A stretch of 6,742 nt of DNA, taken from contig WRBZ01000047.1 in NCBI GenBank assembly GCA_009784305.1, positions 1-6,742 on the forward strand, written 5' to 3'. A program made the translations under genes and the position numbers. The notes under the pieces were generated by a model. That model was given only the letters and a program-made list of their open reading frames with translations, did not search any database and was not told where the DNA came from. This document shows, in pieces, positions 1-6,742 of the stretch (position 1 is its first letter; every line of letters starts with the position of its first letter). This DNA comes from Synergistaceae bacterium (GTDB lineage Bacteria > Synergistota > Synergistia > Synergistales > Aminobacteriaceae).

Positions 1-398
1 CGCAAACCATACCGCTTCGCAGAGTACTTCGCGCGGGTCAGGAGGTTTTGGCTCCCCCCGCTTGCGAGTATCACCGATCGAAGCCCATGCAGCTCATCTG
101 TCGAGGTACACGCGCCCAAGTGTATTATCTCCGCCGCGCCCAGCCCCGCAAGCCCCTCGCAGCACGACAAAACCGCGCCGCTCCCGAAACCGGATGATAC
201 AACGGCGATCGCCACATTTTTATAGCTGCCTGAGTAAGCCAGGACATCCCCCAGCTCGTAAACCAGAGTATTGCACTCCAGGTGGTGGGCGGCGAGCATC
301 TTCGCGCGCAGGGGGTCGTCGGTAAGTATTATGCGCCCAGGCAGGGTTTCCGGGAGTTTGTTCAACCCGTGATCGCACCTCTCATGAAAAAATCGCAC
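1..398 (-). CDS. DeoD-family nucleoside phosphorylase, divergent (3' end outside window)
   Basis: The minus frame from 398 to the left edge encodes about 132 residues that align without gaps to the N-terminal half of hexameric purine nucleoside phosphorylase (DeoD), which splits purine nucleosides with phosphate. Landmarks are DDPLRAK (family GDPLRAK), YSGSYK (family FTGTYK), SSGFGSG (family G-GMG-PS) and IIHLGACTS (family IIRVGSCGA). Of the phosphate ligands of E. coli DeoD only Arg24 is kept; Gly20 is Asp, Arg43 is Gly and Arg87 is His. It may therefore be a non-phosphorolytic or altered-specificity paralogue. The start is uncertain: GTG at 398 has a weak Shine-Dalgarno site, while TTG at 365 has GAGAGG 12 nt upstream and gives a length nearer the family norm. 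A stop (TAG) precedes both. It has its own promoter at 435-463. Family membership is firm; substrate is not inferable. The catalytic Asp204/Arg217 region lies outside the window. Confidence 0.8.
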   Translation of the reverse strand, partial: MRFFHERCDHGLNKLPETLPGRIILTDDPLRAKMLAAHHLECNTLVYELGDVLAYSGSYKNVAIAVVSSGFGSGAVLSCCEGLAGLGAAEIIHLGACTSTDELHGLRSVILASGGSQNLLTRAKYSAKRYGL

Positions 399-434
399 AC
401 TTTGCCAGCCCTATATGATGATAGCGCAGCAGTT

Positions 435-463
435 ATTATACACTGCATGTGTCCCTTATACAA
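435..463 (-). promoter_or_regulatory. Sigma-A-type promoter of the nucleoside phosphorylase gene
   Basis: On the minus strand TTGTAT (458-463) and a perfect TATAAT (435-440) are separated by exactly 17 bp. Transcription would begin near 428, about 30 nt before the GTG candidate start and about 63 nt before the TTG candidate. The site lies in an AT-rich gap after dxr, so the phosphorylase is probably not solely dependent on dxr read-through. Confidence 0.6.
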
Positions 464-504
464 TATAGTTCGCAGCGCGGCCGCGAATTTCTGTCATGAT
501 TTTC

Positions 505-523
505 GACATTATTCTATAATGTC
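505..523. repeat. Perfect 8-bp inverted repeat between dxr and the phosphorylase gene
   Basis: GACATTAT (505-512) and ATAATGTC (516-523) are perfect reverse complements around a 3-nt centre. The stem is AT-rich and no T-run follows on the minus strand, so it is a poor intrinsic terminator for dxr. It could be an operator: it sits about 40 bp upstream of the -35 box of the phosphorylase promoter. The remainder of 464-572 shows no other feature I can support. Confidence 0.45.
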
Positions 524-572
524 ATTAAAGCGTTGGGCGAAACCCGCGCGCTCGTGTGCCGGCCTCGGCTTA

Positions 573-1715
573 TTATACCGCCACGTTCACCATGCGCGTG
601 TAGAGCCGGGCCTCCGCGTCCGCTTCCAGGATATCGCCAAGCGACAAATGATCCCCCGAAGGGACGCGCGCGAGCGCAGATTCCACACATTTCGCTATGT
701 CGGTGAACCGTATCTCCCCGTTTAGGAAACGCGCCACCGCCGTCTCCCCCGCCGCCGCAAGCACCGCCCCCGCAAGCCCCCCCCGACCGGCCGCTTCCAG
801 CGCAAGCGCGAAGCATGGGAAAGCGCGCTGATCCGGCGGCTCCTCCGCAAACGAGGGCAGAGCGCTCAGATCGAGCGGCTTAACAAGCGGAGGCCGGACT
901 TCCGGGTACGTCAACGCGAATTGGATCGGCAGCCTCATGTCCGCCGCCGTCATATAGATGTACGGGCTTTTGTGGACATACTCGACGACCGCGTGGATTA
1001 TGCTTTCCCTGTGGATGCTGACCGAGATACGCTCCAGGGGCATCCCGAAATAATGCATCGTCTCTATGACCTCGTACCCCTTGTTCAGCAGCGTAGCGCT
1101 GTCAATCGTGATTTTTCTGCCCATTTTCCAGCTGGGGTGCTTGAGCGCGTCTTCTATCGTCACATCATACAAACTCTCCGGGCTCCGCCCATAGAACGGC
1201 CCGCCGGAAGCCGTGAGTATTACCCTCCGCACAAGCTCGCGCGGGACGCCCTCCAGGCAGAGGAATACAGCGGATAATTCCGAATCCACAGGCAACAGCA
1301 GGGTCTTGCTCGCACCCATCCGCTTCATAACGAGCCGCCCCGCGGACACCATGGATTCCTTGTTGGCAAGCGCCAGCCGGGGTACGGCGCCGATCGCGGC
1401 AAGCGTGGGCAGGAGCCCGGAAATACCGGGCGACGCCACCAAGGTCGTCACCGCGCGCGGGTGGGCAGCGGCCTCGCAAACGGAGTCAGGCCCTCCGAGC
1501 ACTTTTACCGGCGTGTCGGACAATCTGACGCGCAGGTCGCTTGCGGCGGCCGCATCGGACATCACGGCCATTTCGGGCCGGTACTTGCGGCACTGGTTTT
1601 CAAGCTCCGACACATTTCTTCCGGCCGCAAGGGCCACCGGGCGCTCGCCGAGGTGGTCGAGCACGTCGAGGGCTTGCTTTCCGATCGAACCTGTCGAACC
1701 GATCAGTGAAATCAT
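573..1715 (-). CDS. dxr: 1-deoxy-D-xylulose 5-phosphate reductoisomerase
   Basis: The 380-residue product rearranges and reduces 1-deoxy-D-xylulose 5-phosphate to 2-C-methyl-D-erythritol 4-phosphate with NADPH and a divalent metal, the committed step of the cytoplasmic MEP isoprenoid pathway. The N-terminus carries the NADPH loop GSTGSIG (5-11). LANKES (116-121) follows, then metal ligands Asp144 and Glu146 in PVDSE, the substrate-side HPSW (193-196) with the flexible-loop Trp, and NKGYE (211-215) whose Glu215 is the third metal ligand. Length is normal for the family. ATG at 1715 is chosen because GGAAGGGG lies 7 nt upstream and the NADPH loop begins at once; an in-frame ATG at 1775 would add 20 unmatched residues. 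One stretch is odd: where B. subtilis has DKSVIAQLG before the PDMR motif, this protein has HKSPYIYMT before ADMR (248-261). The usual neighbours uppS, cdsA and rseP are not adjacent, and a leader promoter at 1858-1886 gives independent expression. Confidence 0.96.
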   Translation of the reverse strand: MISLIGSTGSIGKQALDVLDHLGERPVALAAGRNVSELENQCRKYRPEMAVMSDAAAASDLRVRLSDTPVKVLGGPDSVCEAAAHPRAVTTLVASPGISGLLPTLAAIGAVPRLALANKESMVSAGRLVMKRMGASKTLLLPVDSELSAVFLCLEGVPRELVRRVILTASGGPFYGRSPESLYDVTIEDALKHPSWKMGRKITIDSATLLNKGYEVIETMHYFGMPLERISVSIHRESIIHAVVEYVHKSPYIYMTAADMRLPIQFALTYPEVRPPLVKPLDLSALPSFAEEPPDQRAFPCFALALEAAGRGGLAGAVLAAAGETAVARFLNGEIRFTDIAKCVESALARVPSGDHLSLGDILEADAEARLYTRMVNVAV

Positions 1716-1720
1716 TTTTT

Positions 1721-1731
1721 TGCCCCTTCCA
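1721..1731 (-). promoter_or_regulatory. Ribosome binding site that fixes the dxr start
   Basis: The minus strand reads GGAAGGGG, seven bases, then ATG at 1715. This purine-rich site decides for the 380-residue form over the longer open frame from 1775. Confidence 0.75.
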
Positions 1732-1820
1732 AAGCGGGCTGCGCCCACGAACCAATGTGCGGCGCCGGAATTCAAATGTCAGACGCCAGAAAAAAGAATT
1801 CATATTGATAGAAACAAGTT

Positions 1821-1847
1821 GCGGGAGAGCTTGCAGCGCTCTCCCGC
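1821..1847 (-). terminator. Strong hairpin in the dxr leader; terminator of the island or 5' mRNA hairpin
   Basis: GCGGGAGAGC (1821-1830) pairs perfectly with GCTCTCCCGC (1838-1847) around a 7-nt loop. On the minus strand it is followed by AACTTGTTTCT, a broken T-tract, so termination of transcripts arriving from gene A is plausible but not ideal. Because the dxr promoter lies just upstream at 1858-1886, the same hairpin would form within about 5 nt of the dxr transcript 5' end, where it could stabilise the mRNA or act as an attenuator. Both roles are possible. Confidence 0.55.
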
Positions 1848-1857
1848 AGGCGCGGTC

Positions 1858-1886: not shown

Positions 1887-1914
1887 TACTTTCCCGTATT
1901 ACCATGGGTGCAGA

Positions 1915-2619
1915 TCAACTACCAGACATTCGGATAAAGTATTCTTGCTTTATGCTCTCATACGCTTCCTGAGTTATGGGCTCAAAGAGTTTCAGTTCTT
2001 CGAAATAGTTTTCCTCTGGCATAAATCCGGGATTTTCACGGACGAACTGCGCAAGTTCGATCCTCTCTTCAGCCGTCAACTCGCCATATTGCCATCTGCC
2101 CTTGTATAACCCGTATTCCTGGTCATAAACCGATTTTGCTGTTCTTAGCGCATTTTCATAACTCCAGAAATAAAAATACAAATAATATGCCCATCTGGAA
2201 AAATCAGTAAATCTGTCAAACAAGTAGTCGTTATATGACTGATATAACCTGATAATATCCTCCTTCGTAGGCGGAGTAAGCAAATCGTTATCAAATGAGG
2301 CCCTATACGTTGAATACAGGCTCAATAACAGTTCCAGCTTGTCAGAATAGATAAGATGCCCGTCGCCGATATCCTCCTCCCGCTCCACGCTATCGTATGT
2401 AAACTCGTTAACGCCTACGTGGATGGCTTCAAGCCCCTGAAAAACATATTTTCTACTTTTTTTATTCAACCTCTCGCTTTCTTCCTTACGCATTTTAATA
2501 TTCTCAGTGATCGGACCTTTTAAGCCAATAACTGTAGTAACCAGTGCGACTAATGCCATTACGTAAACAACACAACGACGTATTGTCTCTTTTTTTCTTG
2601 CCCTTAATTCCGTTTCCAT
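1915..2619 (-). CDS. Membrane-anchored protein of unknown family, paralogue A
   Basis: I do not recognise this 234-residue protein. A basic N-terminus (residues 4-15, rich in Arg/Lys) precedes one hydrophobic segment (about 16-33), which by the positive-inside rule suggests N-in/C-out topology with a charged, probably helical region of about 200 residues outside. No lipobox or cleavage site is evident. Conserved with paralogues B and C are IYSDKLEL (90-97), YENALRTAK (154-162), YDQEYGLYKG (165-174), ELTAEERIELA (180-190) and NPGFMPEE (196-203). Residues about 112-150 differ strongly from the paralogues. ATG at 2619 has GAGGG six bases upstream and lies 12 bp after the stop of the 170-residue gene, so the two are one transcription unit. 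The first 90 bp or so are nearly the same as in C (about 10 differences by eye). An immunity-type or partner protein for the upstream product is a guess from gene order. Confidence 0.85.
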   Translation of the reverse strand: METELRARKKETIRRCVVYVMALVALVTTVIGLKGPITENIKMRKEESERLNKKSRKYVFQGLEAIHVGVNEFTYDSVEREEDIGDGHLIYSDKLELLLSLYSTYRASFDNDLLTPPTKEDIIRLYQSYNDYLFDRFTDFSRWAYYLYFYFWSYENALRTAKSVYDQEYGLYKGRWQYGELTAEERIELAQFVRENPGFMPEENYFEELKLFEPITQEAYESIKQEYFIRMSGS

Positions 2620-2631
2620 TATTTTCCCTCA

Positions 2632-3144
2632 CTACTTTTGATTGTGTACTGATCTGTACCAATCCACATACTTCTTAATTCTATCGTTATTAATTTCATC
2701 ATCTTCTGTCAGCAAGAAGCTTATGAAGTCTTGCACATCCAGGCTAATACCGGTTTCAACCTTGTATACTTCCAGATCCTCCTCGAGTTTATCCACTTCT
2801 ATGATGATATGATTAAATAGTATTCCGCCTGATGAAGTAAATGTGATCGCTGCTCCAATATAAGCTACGTCTGAAAGCTTGTCATAATCAGACATTTTTA
2901 AAGCACGATCCACTTTCTTATTTTTTTCTTCATTTTTAACGAGAGCATTAACCAGGTCAAAAGCAGCAGTACCAGCTTTAAATATTCCTTTTAGTGCAGG
3001 GTTTATGCTTGTAATAGCGTCCGTGATTTGTTTGATCGCATATTTATTAAACCATTCTTGCGCCGCCTCAATCTGTCCTAATTGCATTGACCGTAATTCT
3101 TTGTCATGATACTTTTTGGGGACATTTGCTTGATGAAACACCAT
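2632..3144 (-). CDS. C-terminal-domain paralogue of the large island protein (truncated form)
   Basis: The 170-residue product matches only residues about 330-485 of the large protein encoded at 5242-6742. Shared blocks are the LGQI/MGQI start, GAAxTxTSSGGI (97-108 here, 416-427 there), LEE-L--Y-V-TG-SL-VQD (120-139) and a late WY (162-163). The first dozen residues match nothing, and the roughly 330 N-terminal residues of the full form are missing. There is no Shine-Dalgarno site before ATG 3144, and the start codon sits at the edge of an inverted-repeat element, so the gene looks cut at that junction. The body of the frame is intact with conserved positions, which argues for a functional domain or a recent truncation. 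Glycine/alanine-rich hydrophobic stretches (50-66, 92-108) might meet a membrane. Gene A follows after 12 bp. No family recognised. Confidence 0.72.
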   Translation of the reverse strand: MVFHQANVPKKYHDKELRSMQLGQIEAAQEWFNKYAIKQITDAITSINPALKGIFKAGTAAFDLVNALVKNEEKNKKVDRALKMSDYDKLSDVAYIGAAITFTSSGGILFNHIIIEVDKLEEDLEVYKVETGISLDVQDFISFLLTEDDEINNDRIKKYVDWYRSVHNQK

Positions 3145-3297
3145 TTCTGAAAAATACCATCATTTTTTACACAAATCTTAAGTAAAGTACGATTTTCATG
3201 CGGATTTTGGCTGATTATCGAGAAAAACAGACGTTTTTCACTTAAAATTCGTACTCTACTTGCATTTTGTGCTAAAAACCGGATGTTTTTCTGGAAA
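3144..3297. repeat. Imperfect inverted repeat of about 155 bp (MITE-like or hairpin element)
   Basis: The left arm (3144-3196) and the reverse complement of the right arm (3244-3297) align along their whole length with a few small gaps, roughly three quarters identical by eye. The best block is AAGTAAAGTACGA against AAGTAGAGTACGA. The centre holds a perfect hairpin, GAAAAAC (3222-3228) and GTTTTTC (3233-3239). No transposase is encoded. The size and palindromic form suit a non-autonomous miniature element, though a transcribed long hairpin is equally possible. The left edge coincides with the start codon of the 170-residue gene. Terminal repeats and target duplication could not be defined. 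Confidence 0.5.
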
Positions 3298-3421
3298 TCT
3301 TATAAGTCCGGGCGTAATTAGTCGAACAATCATAATGACGAATCCGCTTCTGTGTTAATTCACACTAAATCCGTTCATTCGCTTCTGTACGCAAACAACT
3401 TATGCTAATAGCCACGCAAAA

Positions 3422-3589
3422 ATGGCTGTCCGGGAAGTCCCGGTTGCTGGATTGCAGCAAGCAGGGCAGTGGGTTGGCGTCATGCGTCCGGGCGGGGCTT
3501 ATGTGGTTAAGTCCTCCTCTGCAGATGGCAGGGGCGTGACGCCGTTGCAGGGGCGCATTTTTCGGGGTTTTGCCTGTTCTACCTGCTAA
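3422..3589 (+). other. GC-rich block with open plus-strand frame (55 codons) and tight hairpins; small gene or structured RNA
   Basis: Within the 562-bp gap this stretch is far more GC-rich than the flanking AT-rich DNA. Two hairpins stand side by side: CCGGGA-AG-TCCCGG (3430-3443) and TTGCTG-GATTG-CAGCAA (3444-3460). A GCAGGG (near 3547) and CCCTGC (3591-3596) followed by GTTTTTG could close a larger stem. The plus frame from ATG 3422 to TAA 3589 encodes 55 residues, including AYVVKSSSADGRGVTPLQGR; the frame is open back to 3359 without another ATG. No ribosome binding site precedes the ATG and the composition (Gly, Val, Ser, Arg) resembles no family I know. It may be a dispersed repeat, a structured RNA or a short gene; I cannot choose between them. 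Confidence 0.3.
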
Positions 3590-3706
3590 TCCCTGCGTTT
3601 TTGGGGGCGATATTAATTTAGGGGGTCTGGCATCCCTTGGAACGGCTGACCTTTTAAACTAACGATATGATTCGAATTTACCATGGACGCAGATTATCCA
3701 TCCCTG

Positions 3707-4378
3707 TCAGTTATTGCATTCTTGCTTTATGCTCTCATATGCATCCAGAGTTATAAGCTCAAGATTTTTCAATACTTCGGAATAGATGTCCTCAGGCATG
3801 AAATCCGGGTTATTACGGACGAACTGCGCAAGTTCGATCCTCTCATTGGCTGTCAAGTCACCATAATGTAATTTGCCCTTATACAGCCCATATTCCTCGT
3901 CATAAGCTATTTTCGCTGTTCTCAGAGCGTCTTCGTAATTTCTGATGTACTCCCTTGAGATTTCTGCCCAACTACAGAAATGATTAAACCTTTTTAAAAG
4001 GGTCGGCCTTATGGCGTTATACATTTTTTTAATGCCATTCTTTGTCGGCGCTCTGTACCCATTGTCGTAGTATGTGGCAATAAAGGTTGAATACAGGTGT
4101 AACTGCAGTTCCAGCTTGTCAACATAGATAAAATCCCCGTCGCCGATTTCCTCTATCCGCCCTTCGTTGTCGCACGCATACTCATTGACGTATACCCCAA
4201 TATCGTTCAGTTTAGTTCTGATCGCGCGTTTTATTGGTATGAGTGCCTCTTCAACTCTTTTCTGATCCTCGATATACCCTTCCATAGAGTCATGGACAGT
4301 GGCAAGTAATACGCTTAATGCCATAATAACAGCGAAAGAACAACCAACTATCGTTTTTGCTCTTGAACTCTTTTCCAT
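3707..4378 (-). CDS. Membrane-anchored protein of unknown family, paralogue B (orphan)
   Basis: Unrecognised family, shared with A and C. ATG at 4378 (223 residues) is preferred over the in-frame ATG at 4435 because GGGAG lies five bases before it and the paralogues begin just ahead of the membrane segment. That hydrophobic segment (about 9-27) is unlike the nearly identical ones of A and C. The outer region matches them: IYVDKLELQLHLYSTF (84-99), NYEDALRTAK (147-156), YDEEYGLYKGKLHYGDLT (159-176), ERIELAQFVRNNP (179-191) and FMPED (193-197). The final AYESIKQE block resembles A, the centre resembles C, suggesting a mosaic history. No large-protein partner lies upstream: the preceding gene is C, so B is an orphan copy. 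It has a possible promoter of its own at 4455-4485. Sequence similarity to A continues past the stop codon. Confidence 0.83.
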   Translation of the reverse strand: MEKSSRAKTIVGCSFAVIMALSVLLATVHDSMEGYIEDQKRVEEALIPIKRAIRTKLNDIGVYVNEYACDNEGRIEEIGDGDFIYVDKLELQLHLYSTFIATYYDNGYRAPTKNGIKKMYNAIRPTLLKRFNHFCSWAEISREYIRNYEDALRTAKIAYDEEYGLYKGKLHYGDLTANERIELAQFVRNNPDFMPEDIYSEVLKNLELITLDAYESIKQECNN

Positions 4379-4454
4379 TGCTGCTCCCGGTTTATCATGT
4401 TTTTTGCTAAATACGCGCCGAAAAACCAAACACATTTCGATGCGGCATGAAATT

Positions 4455-4485
4455 AGTATAATGTATCGAGTAACTTGAAGGTCAA
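4455..4485 (-). promoter_or_regulatory. Candidate promoter of paralogue B
   Basis: On the minus strand TTGACC (4480-4485, five of six -35 bases) precedes TATACT (4455-4460, five of six -10 bases) with a 19-bp spacer, slightly long for sigma-A. It lies 77 bp upstream of the B start codon and downstream of the C stop, so B could be transcribed apart from the large-protein/C unit. The short stretch 4486-4528 shows only a weak imperfect dyad. Confidence 0.4.
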
Positions 4486-4528
4486 TAGGTACTACATTCC
4501 TAAATCCGAACGGAATATCCGGCTTTGA

Positions 4529-5242
4529 TCAAAATTCGGCCATTTCGCGTTTCCACTCAAGTAATAGGCGCTCAAATTCTTCATATCTCAATGGCTCAAG
4601 ATTTTTCAGCTCTTCAAAAAATATGTCTTCGGGCATGAATTCCGGATTATTACGGACGATTTTCGCAAGCTCAATTCTCTCTTTACCCGTCAGTTCACCA
4701 TAATGCAACTTGCCCTTGTACAGTCCATATTCCTCGTCATAAACCAGTTTTGCTGTTCTAAGAGCGTCTTCGTAATTCTGTATATAATCCTTTGTTAGCT
4801 CTGCCCAAAGACAAAACTGTAGGAGTCTTTCAGCTGGCTTCATATTATTATGTAAAAATATTTTTTTTATATCATTCATCTCAGGTGCTTTGTTTTTATT
4901 AATATACGAGGCCAAAAAAGATGAATACAAGCTCAACTGAAGTTCCAGTTTGTCAGAATAGATATACTCACCATCGTAGATTTTCTCCTTCCGCTCATAG
5001 CTATCGTACGTATACTCCGTAACGACTACTCCTATTCTGGCGAGCCGACTAATCATTACATCTTTATTAAACTTCATTTGCTCATCACGTTTTTCCTCCT
5101 CCGCCTCACGTCTTTCCTTACGTTTTTCCATATTCTCAGTGACTGGACCTTTTAAGCCAATAACTGCAGTAACCAGGGCGATTAACGCCATTACGTAAAC
5201 GATAGAACGACGTACTGTCTCTACTCTTGCTTTTTTTCCCAT
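4529..5242 (-). CDS. Membrane-anchored protein of unknown family, paralogue C, coupled to the large protein
   Basis: Unrecognised family. Two ATGs stand in tandem at 5245 and 5242; AAGGAG lies two bases before the first and five before the second, so the second (237 residues) is the likelier start. Either way translation is coupled, the stop of the large gene (TGA, 5244-5242) overlapping the start. A basic N-terminus, a hydrophobic segment (about 13-30) and a charged Lys/Glu stretch (38-60, possible coiled coil) are followed by the family core: YTYDSYERKE (77-86), IYSDKLELQLSLYSSF (94-109), NYEDALRTAK (156-165), YDEEYGLYKGKLHYGELT (168-185) and NPEFMPED (199-206). Predicted single-pass with C-terminus outside. 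Residues about 116-150 are the part least like A and B. The tight coupling indicates that it acts together with the large protein, for instance as membrane partner or immunity protein; that role is inference. Confidence 0.88.
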   Translation of the reverse strand: MGKKARVETVRRSIVYVMALIALVTAVIGLKGPVTENMEKRKERREAEEEKRDEQMKFNKDVMISRLARIGVVVTEYTYDSYERKEKIYDGEYIYSDKLELQLSLYSSFLASYINKNKAPEMNDIKKIFLHNNMKPAERLLQFCLWAELTKDYIQNYEDALRTAKLVYDEEYGLYKGKLHYGELTGKERIELAKIVRNNPEFMPEDIFFEELKNLEPLRYEEFERLLLEWKREMAEF

Positions 5243-6742
5243 CATAGCTCCTTTTTCTGCGGGACGGCAAAGACCTGAATGTAAAATTTATCGTACCAGC
5301 GTGCAAAATCTCGCAGTTTGTTGTTTGCGAAGTCTTTGTCCTCTAGGAGAGCTATTATGTCTTGTACATACAAACTAACCCCGGTTTTGACCCTGTATTC
5401 AGCAAGAATCTCTTCAAGTTCAACCTCAAAAACGTACCACTCATTAATGCAAATTCCGCCACTGGAAGTCAAGGTGAGAGCTGCCCCAAGGCAAGCTGCA
5501 TTTGAGAGTTGAGTATAATAAGACAGAGCCAATGCCTTGTCTGCGATCTCGTTTCTTCCATCATTTTTCTTATATGCATCCACCAGTTCATAGATAGCAT
5601 GACCCACCTCAGCGCATGCCGCCATTCCTGGGATACCTTTGACAAATGCATTTATGGCTTTTTCAATCCCTTTTTCCATAAACCAGGTTGCTACCACACT
5701 GATCTGCCCCATCTTCAGGGACCACAACTCATCTTCCAGATGCTCTGCGGAAAAAAAGTTCAATTTCGGGCGGTATTGATACATATCGATCGATCCAGCA
5801 GAAGATAAGTTGATACTCAAGTTATAATCCCAGGGCCATTTATCATACTCGTCACCAGGCTCAATATGAGTAAGCCTTACCGTGAGCTTCTGCTTCCCAG
5901 CAAACTGTGTATTCCCCATCATTGGACCTAGTTGGGGCACGGAACTCCAAGGAGGAATCGCACTCATCGATGCGGCGTAACCTATAATCGCTGTTAGAAG
6001 CTGATTGATGAATACTGCCCTATTTATTTCGTCATCCACACTTTCGGGAGGAGCCTCAGCAAAGATACCCTTTCTTAGCATTAGCCCTGCCATTGTTAAA
6101 AAGACTGGACTCAAGTTGTGACGGAATGATTCCGCGTCAGGTATAGAAAGGACGCCAGACGGCAATATCTCTTTTTCGAGTAAATATGATAACTCTATAA
6201 ACTTTTCAACTTCACCCATGTCCCCGTTGAGATTCCCCCGTTGTATAAGCCCGTCGAATACGCCTATGAGGACCATCATTTGGATTTCATTTATCTGCTC
6301 GACGTCCATTTCCATGACGTCAGTTATAAATTGTACCCAACTGCCGTCCGCAAGATAAGATTTTGTAAGGAAGTCCACAGCCTGCTCCACGGTTATACTC
6401 TCGGTTGATAAACATGGTACAGGATCATATATCATCTTGTTCTCAAACCAGTTTTCTCCGCTCAGATCGCACCATATACCTATCAGGCCGCTGTTTGCAC
6501 CGTCAGTATATGAGATCAACTGCGCATTCCTCACTACTCTGCCGTTTTGAACAAACTCGCCGGACGCAGCATTGAGACTGATCGACACATCGGGAGAAGT
6601 GTTTTGTTCCAAAGAACTCGAGGTTATCAACGCGCAAACCTCTTCTTCGCTCTTCCTTTGTTCTTTAATTGCGTTATCCATGCCATCAGCCATGTCGTCA
6701 ATCACTTGTATGACCTTATTTTTCCACGCCAAAAAATCATAA
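5242..6742 (-). CDS. Large two-part protein of unknown family (5' end probably outside window)
   Basis: The minus frame is open to the right edge. The first possible start inside the window is TTG at 6732 (496 residues), without visible ribosome binding site, and codons upstream of it (Tyr-Asp-Phe) remain open, so the true start probably lies beyond 6742. I recognise no family. Numbering from the TTG: residues 1-35 are a charged helix; 48-105 look beta-rich; 115-255 are mainly helical; 280-325 again beta-rich with a WPWDY motif (299-303). Residues 330-485 form the domain repeated alone in the 170-residue gene, with Gly/Ala-rich stretches (363-380 and 407-420) and TSSGGI (422-427). No signal peptide, clear transmembrane helix, Walker motif, HNH or other catalytic signature is visible. 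The stop overlaps the start of C. The arrangement of conserved tip domain plus membrane partner recalls a polymorphic toxin with its immunity protein, without direct evidence. Confidence 0.85.
   Translation of the reverse strand, partial: YDFLAWKNKVIQVIDDMADGMDNAIKEQRKSEEEVCALITSSSLEQNTSPDVSISLNAASGEFVQNGRVVRNAQLISYTDGANSGLIGIWCDLSGENWFENKMIYDPVPCLSTESITVEQAVDFLTKSYLADGSWVQFITDVMEMDVEQINEIQMMVLIGVFDGLIQRGNLNGDMGEVEKFIELSYLLEKEILPSGVLSIPDAESFRHNLSPVFLTMAGLMLRKGIFAEAPPESVDDEINRAVFINQLLTAIIGYAASMSAIPPWSSVPQLGPMMGNTQFAGKQKLTVRLTHIEPGDEYDKWPWDYNLSINLSSAGSIDMYQYRPKLNFFSAEHLEDELWSLKMGQISVVATWFMEKGIEKAINAFVKGIPGMAACAEVGHAIYELVDAYKKNDGRNEIADKALALSYYTQLSNAACLGAALTLTSSGGICINEWYVFEVELEEILAEYRVKTGVSLYVQDIIALLEDKDFANNKLRDFARWYDKFYIQVFAVPQKKEL

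Follow-up and report, generated by a model that had tools for sequence, protein, structure and literature searches.

The window analysed here, one entire contig of 6,742 bp (WRBZ01000047.1; contig C47 of bin G000), carries an island of five colinear genes on its minus strand. In order, these encode a large protein, a partner protein (C), a second partner (B), a stand-alone copy of the C-terminal "tip" domain of the large protein, and a third partner (A); dxr and part of a PNP_UDP phosphorylase gene follow. The best reading of the island, which we hold with moderate confidence, is that it specifies a polymorphic antibacterial toxin exported by a type VII secretion system (T7SS), together with an array of TipC-like, outward-facing, membrane-anchored immunity proteins and an orphan tip cassette. 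A candidate immunity gene is present directly downstream of the large gene, and an orphan tip/immunity cassette is present further on, which is the layout of a polymorphic toxin locus. A preliminary description of the window had raised a toxin/immunity array as one possibility. That idea has gained ground: judged from the sequences, it is the best-supported reading, given a conserved front and a divergent tip in the large protein, partner genes downstream, an orphan tip with a partner of its own, and partner paralogues that appear to recombine.

In the mechanism that we propose, the large protein would leave the cell through a T7SS by means of a WXG-like front end, and its C-terminal domain of ~165 residues would be the toxin. 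The partners would be immunity proteins anchored in the membrane, each with a helical domain outside the cell that could bind incoming toxin of an adjacent sister cell ahead of its target at the membrane or cell wall. C, which is co-encoded with the toxin, would confer immunity to that toxin; B may guard against a variant that the strain itself does not produce; and the stand-alone tip and A could be a reserve cassette of tip plus immunity protein, from which recombination would supply new tips.

The large protein and the front end of its relative

Besides the large protein itself, a search of 5.8 billion proteins, which needs shared 5-residue words and similar length, so that distant or far longer relatives may escape it, yielded a sole relative, P0002 (583 aa, 47% identity). 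When P0002 residues 1-210 were searched again at expectation (E) values up to 10, the same two proteins were returned. P0002 aligns to the start of the window protein from residue 60 onward, and its ~60 further N-terminal residues correspond to DNA beyond the contig end. The gene is therefore cut, and the earlier view of the large protein as full-length no longer holds. Residues 45-47 of P0002 read W-N-G; the corresponding stretch of the window protein lies past the contig end. In the AlphaFold2 model of P0002 these residues form a turn between two helices (2-44 and 48-100), at a predicted local distance difference test score (pLDDT) of 34-62; the model of the large protein has a mean pLDDT of 36. 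The NCBIfam families ESAT6_2 and WXG100_ESAT6 match P0002 residues 4-91 (E 2.4e-4) and 7-90 (E 5.9e-4), respectively, and Pfam WXG100 matches at E 0.025. If the reading as a T7SS substrate is right, a contig end has here concealed the secretion tag: the window alone offered no sign of type VII export, and the preliminary statement that no T7SS motif is seen, true of the window letters, was misleading because the WXG-like stretch of P0002 falls beyond them. The preliminary description reported no LXG motif either; in P0002, scanned against Pfam with E values up to 1, WXG100 is the single family listed and an LXG domain is lacking.

Because weak WXG-like matches were also seen in relatives, chemotaxis receptors among them, shuffle and decoy tests were run. 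A custom model was made from 30 WXG proteins of EssC loci, which were chosen by their W-x-G pattern and hence bias the model to that motif. With this model P0002 residues 1-110 score 15.2 bits and residues 1-100 score 15.5 bits, and W-N-G aligns on the W-x-G of the model. The maxima of three sets of 20,000 shuffles (13.4, 14.3, and 13.4 bits) all fall below the P0002 N-terminus, and the best decoy window, from a chemotaxis receptor, reaches 13.3 bits. Together with the family matches, these scores indicate that the front end of P0002 is likely to be WXG-like. Four of the weak matches in relatives, in proteins of ~590-680 residues, were first mistaken for relatives of the large protein and then rejected; judging by their sequence, we take them to be chemotaxis receptors. 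A fifth (in genome G063) falls in an unrelated open frame of 253 residues.

Identity between the large protein and P0002 is 0.68 over residues 3-36, 0.62 over residues 37-62, and 0.64 over residues 63-200, and is 0.39 in both 201-332 and 333-499. A conserved front, a divergent back, and a back part that recurs as a separate gene make up, as judged on these two proteins, the pattern of a polymorphic toxin.

Partners, tips and their diversification

The paralogy of the partners had been recognized previously and is far beyond chance: when C is searched against the whole protein database, A is matched at E 1.2e-57 and B at E 7.5e-54, and identities are 51% for A-C, 48-49% for B-C, and 47% for A-B. 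The similarity of A and B extends past their stop codons (window 1899-1929 and 3678-3706), with 3678-4190 aligning with 1899-2413 at 70%; thus, the duplicated unit took in 3' flank. Each partner contains one N-terminal hydrophobic segment with a mean hydropathy of 2.2-2.5 over 19 residues; neither of the two large proteins exceeds 1.5 on this measure, and the stand-alone tip does not exceed 1.3. The net charge before the segment is +4 in C, +3 in A, and +2 in B, and that of the 15 residues behind it is +1, -1, and -3, respectively. The positive-inside rule predicts that the remainder of each partner faces outward, least clearly in C. A model of C is helical (mean pLDDT 64). The ratio of nonsynonymous to synonymous change (dN/dS) is 0.47 for C-A, 0.28 for C-B, 0.38 for A-B, and 0.35 for the tips, with dS values of 0.85-1.60 that are partly near saturation. 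The partner and tip copies look constrained by purifying selection rather than decaying.

The partner paralogues are mosaic. When A, B, and C are aligned by codon, 278 sites set two copies against one (104 AC, 93 BC, and 81 AB), and the grouping shifts along the gene: between nucleotides (nt) 60 and 120 A groups with C (29 AC, 0 AB, 2 BC), and between nt 660 and 720 it groups with B (18 AB, 5 AC, 3 BC). The maximum chi-square, for which the AC and AB sites were used and the 93 BC sites excluded, is 39.3, a value as high as this being reached in 0 of 5000 permutations. At the synonymous level, A and C differ least over the first 40 codons (0.19 vs 0.34-0.71 elsewhere). This pattern points to recombination between the partner genes; uneven selection along the gene could contribute to it, but alone would not reduce synonymous change. 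Recombination of tipC and of esaG paralogues via conserved end blocks is described in the available portion of Garrett et al. (PMC9484751).

The copy of the C-terminal domain that had been noted as a separate gene aligns with large-protein residues 333-489 at 37% identity (E 5e-29). Across the three tips (those of the large protein and P0002 and the stand-alone one), 30 positions are invariant; Asp occurs once among them, and His, Lys, Arg, Glu, and Cys do not occur, so that no catalytic site is evident. The glycine zipper motif GxxxGxxxG is found in none of P0001, P0002, and the stand-alone tip. With neither a catalytic site nor a zipper in view, a tip that binds or acts on the membrane appears at least as likely as an enzyme. 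The same invariant positions, the purifying selection on all copies, and the failure to match a toxin family would also suit an island that encodes no toxin, namely a complex of the surface or for adhesion that is varied through duplication and in which the partner serves as membrane anchor or receptor. We regard such a complex as improbable, since a stand-alone tip with its own partner, accompanied by tipless extra partners, is the usual toxin/immunity layout, and a partial toxin copy within an immunity cluster has a precedent in the tspA fragment located within the tsaI cluster (described in an extract of PMC9484751).

Layout, origin and distribution of the locus

The coordinates (Table 1) agree with the colinear minus-strand order given for the five genes in the preliminary description, and two of its details prove exact: the 4-bp overlap that joins the large gene and C (ATGA, 5242-5245) and the 12-bp spacing between the stand-alone tip and A (2620-2631). 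The database copy of B, P0005, is 223 aa long and starts at 4378. Shine-Dalgarno-like sequences are present upstream of C, B (at the 4378 start), and A; the bases upstream of the stand-alone tip contain no visible ribosome-binding or Shine-Dalgarno-like sequence. The gap before this gene holds an imperfect inverted repeat (3218-3295; 21-nt arms, 81%). The gap DNA has no further match in 80 genomes of the family, and no decayed copy of the large gene was found by tblastn in 3145-3706. Hairpin scanning gives a weak signal (4 terminator-like sites vs 3.8 expected in shuffles), and promoter-like sites are uninformative (14 vs 11.7 expected). In the protein database A, B, and C each appear on an 8,681-bp contig, and the large protein appears on 6,742 bp only; thus, a second assembly of the locus seems to exist.

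Table 1. Positions of the island genes, their parts, and their neighbours in the window
Feature	Position	Strand	Remarks
Large protein gene	5242-6741	-	ORF open at 5' end, cut by contig end; 499 residues visible
Large protein residues 1-36	6634..6741	-	Second helix of the P0002 WXG-like hairpin, by alignment to P0002
Large protein residues 3-200, conserved front	6142..6735	-	62-68% identity to P0002
Large protein residues 333-499, tip, putative toxin domain	5242..5745	-	Matches stand-alone tip; 39% to P0002
Partner C, putative cognate immunity protein	4529-5245	-	ATGA overlap; AAGGAG before start; N-terminal hydrophobic segment
Partner B, putative extra immunity protein	3707..4378, open frame to 4435	-	48-49% to C; hydrophobic segment
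Stand-alone tip (orphan C-terminal domain)	2632-3144	-	37% to large-protein residues 333-489; dN/dS 0.35
Partner A, putative immunity protein of orphan tip	1915-2619	-	51% to C; mosaic, C-like 5' / B-like 3'
Terminator-like hairpin after A	1820..1848	-	Pattern scan; 11 pairs, 8 G-C
dxr	573-1775	-	
PNP_UDP phosphorylase, partial	3-398	-	E 8e-4, under family cut-off

Bin G000 is fragmented (1.38 Mb in 272 contigs, 78% complete), and the contig fits it poorly at one end. Eight other contigs of the bin have a G+C fraction of 0.41-0.47; that of window 1-1780 is 0.60 and that of the island 0.42. The tetranucleotide correlation of window 1-1780 with three large contigs of the bin is 0.009, compared with 0.64-0.89 for 16 equally long chunks taken from five of its other contigs; the island, at 0.906, lies inside the range of whole non-reference contigs (0.85-0.96). 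A second dxr of G000, on contig C73, is 52-58% identical to those of six relatives, and the window dxr is 38-43% identical to all seven (the C73 copy and the six relatives). The contig was probably misbinned, a GC-rich organism with an AT-rich island being the simplest reading of these sequences; less probably, G000 has acquired a foreign dxr or the contig is chimeric. A host within the clade of the bin that has its own T7SS was set aside, as the dxr end of the contig is unlike the bin. A scan of named genomes for dxr gave a single locus, at 35% identity, which did not identify a host.

In the family of the bin (Synergistota), 12 of 81 genomes encode EssC over its cut-off. One such locus (L058, 6890-17879 of G060:C5) contains EssC with a YukD-like gene (under cut-off) and several WXG-like genes, along with a PP2C phosphatase and a Ser/Thr kinase that has eight hydrophobic segments; another (L060, 3183-15896 of G040:C36) has two CsgG-like genes upstream, and L059 and L061 are further EssC loci. 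BamA-like matches are found in 20 of 20 relatives, all under cut-off. It would be notable for a phylum with an outer membrane to have a type VII-like system. Our literature search found no paper that joins Synergistota with type VII secretion, and some that mention both Synergistetes and EssC.

Genome scans covered 81 genomes of the family for the large protein, 180 of the order for partner C, and 185 of the phylum for the tip alignment, and each had a single positive genome, G000 itself. A scan of one genome per species matched 209 stretches, of which 0 were confirmed. Viral contigs gave no match for either alignment searched, plasmids none for the large protein, and phages none for partner C. 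On these searches, the novelty of the locus is two unrecognised protein families of very narrow distribution.

Several results weigh against a T7SS-exported toxin with its immunity array. Every WXG score of P0002 is under the curated cut-off (15.3 bits against 27.3 for Pfam WXG100, 20.0 against 44.85 for TIGR03930, and 21.3 against 100 for NF035934); at full length the protein reaches only 10.8 bits in the custom model; and WXG100_ESAT6 gives the chemotaxis receptors of the relatives 20.9-24.4 bits vs 20.0 for P0002. The flank of +1 behind the anchor of C leaves the topology signal weak. For the contig of P0002 (3,104 bp) the database records no relative of the partners, and the search of 5.8 billion proteins gave no partner relatives beyond the window's own A, B, and C, which is no help to the proposed pairing. 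No secretion gene is present on the contig, and bin G000 has no WXG100 and no EssC over cut-off (one partial TIGR03928 match, 114 bits vs a cut-off of 778, is read as FtsK); what is missing from the bin says little because the contig probably comes from another organism. Finally, as noted in the preliminary description, no known toxin family is recognized: the island proteins have no acceptable match to a toxin or immunity family in Pfam, PHROGs, PADLOC, or NCBIfam, where the NCBIfam scan covered the partners and the stand-alone tip, and P0002 replaced the large protein in NCBIfam and PADLOC. The sub-threshold scores, the closeness of coiled coils (13.3 vs 15.5 bits in the custom model), and the missing secretion genes would fit a toxin/immunity array that is not type VII, in which the hairpin is generic and the large protein exits by another route. 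We consider this rather unlikely, given that W-N-G, at the turn that links two predicted helices, aligns with W-x-G in the model, and that none of 60,000 shuffles reached the score.

Weak matches to families were rejected (DUF3879, E 0.12; Pepsin-I3, E 0.13-0.16; a PHROG of unknown function, E 0.038), as were the PADLOC matches of CARF to the stand-alone tip (E 0.0021, 15.9 bits) and of C3a156 to B (E 0.023). Sequence searches of solved structures gave chance-level matches for the large protein (L7/L12, E 0.17; S100-A9, E 0.22) and for the partners (complement C7, E 0.08), and Rfam gave nothing over the gathering score. With the partner model, the best Foldseek match has an E value of 1.2, and the best fold alignment among 610 chains has a Z of 4.7, mostly from the long N-terminal helix. 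The single CARF match, the repeated two-gene modules, and a partner predicted to lie in the membrane could also be read as a system for conflict or phage defence inside the cell, its effector being bound to the membrane. This is very improbable: the PADLOC scan of P0002, which stood in for the window's large protein, has no CARF match, a WXG-like front end implies export, and the partner domains are predicted to face outward.

Comparison with known systems

If the reading as an exported toxin with its immunity array is correct, the locus adds a toxin-domain family and an immunity family that the searched libraries do not recognize, and it is an independent case, in unrelated proteins, of surface-anchored immunity with recombining paralogues. 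A bolder version, which we put forward tentatively and think less likely than not, is that the tip is a non-enzymatic, envelope-acting T7SS toxin domain and the partners a helical, singly anchored, outward-facing immunity family, both new; that the tip cassette, lacking a ribosome-binding site, is a silent store for tip swapping; that the immunity genes diversify by mosaic exchange; and that the whole is a convergent solution, unrelated to TelC-TipC and like it.

Among known T7SS proteins, the WXG100/ESAT-6 family resembles P0002 in its helical hairpin with W-x-G at the turn (in a low-confidence model); here, however, the hairpin is fused to ~480 more residues and scores under the curated cut-offs. 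TelE, a glycine-zipper T7SS toxin, reportedly acts on the membrane through its C-terminal part. In EsxX, also a glycine-zipper T7SS toxin, the C-terminal part likewise acts on the membrane, and membrane proteins confer immunity (PMC12744356, in part). Unlike these two toxins, P0001, P0002, and the stand-alone tip contain no GxxxGxxxG, and the EsxX immunity proteins ExiC and ExiD are polytopic according to the same partial source (PMC12744356). The TspA-TsaI system of Staphylococcus aureus is similar in that membrane-bound immunity paralogues form an array behind the toxin gene and a partial toxin copy lies inside that array (PMC9484751, in extract). However, TsaI is polytopic and its paralogues barely recombine, as far as that extract goes, whereas each partner here has one segment and the mosaic is clear.

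The closest parallel in layout is TelC-TipC of Streptococcus intermedius, a lipid II phosphatase of a T7SSb and its immunity protein. In the portion of PMC6193138 available, the N-terminal segment of TipC is an anchor and the protein acts in the inner wall zone; an N-terminal membrane segment with the domain outside is likewise predicted for the partners, least clearly for C. Tandem paralogues, a variable centre, and recombination between paralogues are points in common (PMC9484751 and PMC6193138, each in part). The differences are in the proteins themselves: those of the locus have no match at the curated cut-off in NCBIfam or Pfam, a Pfam scan of P0002 shows no LXG domain, and the TipC fold, given in the same portion of PMC6193138 as a crescent of three helices and seven strands, differs from the helical, low-confidence model of the partner. 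By sequence, then, the locus stands outside the LXG and TipC families, and its layout is of the TelC-TipC kind.

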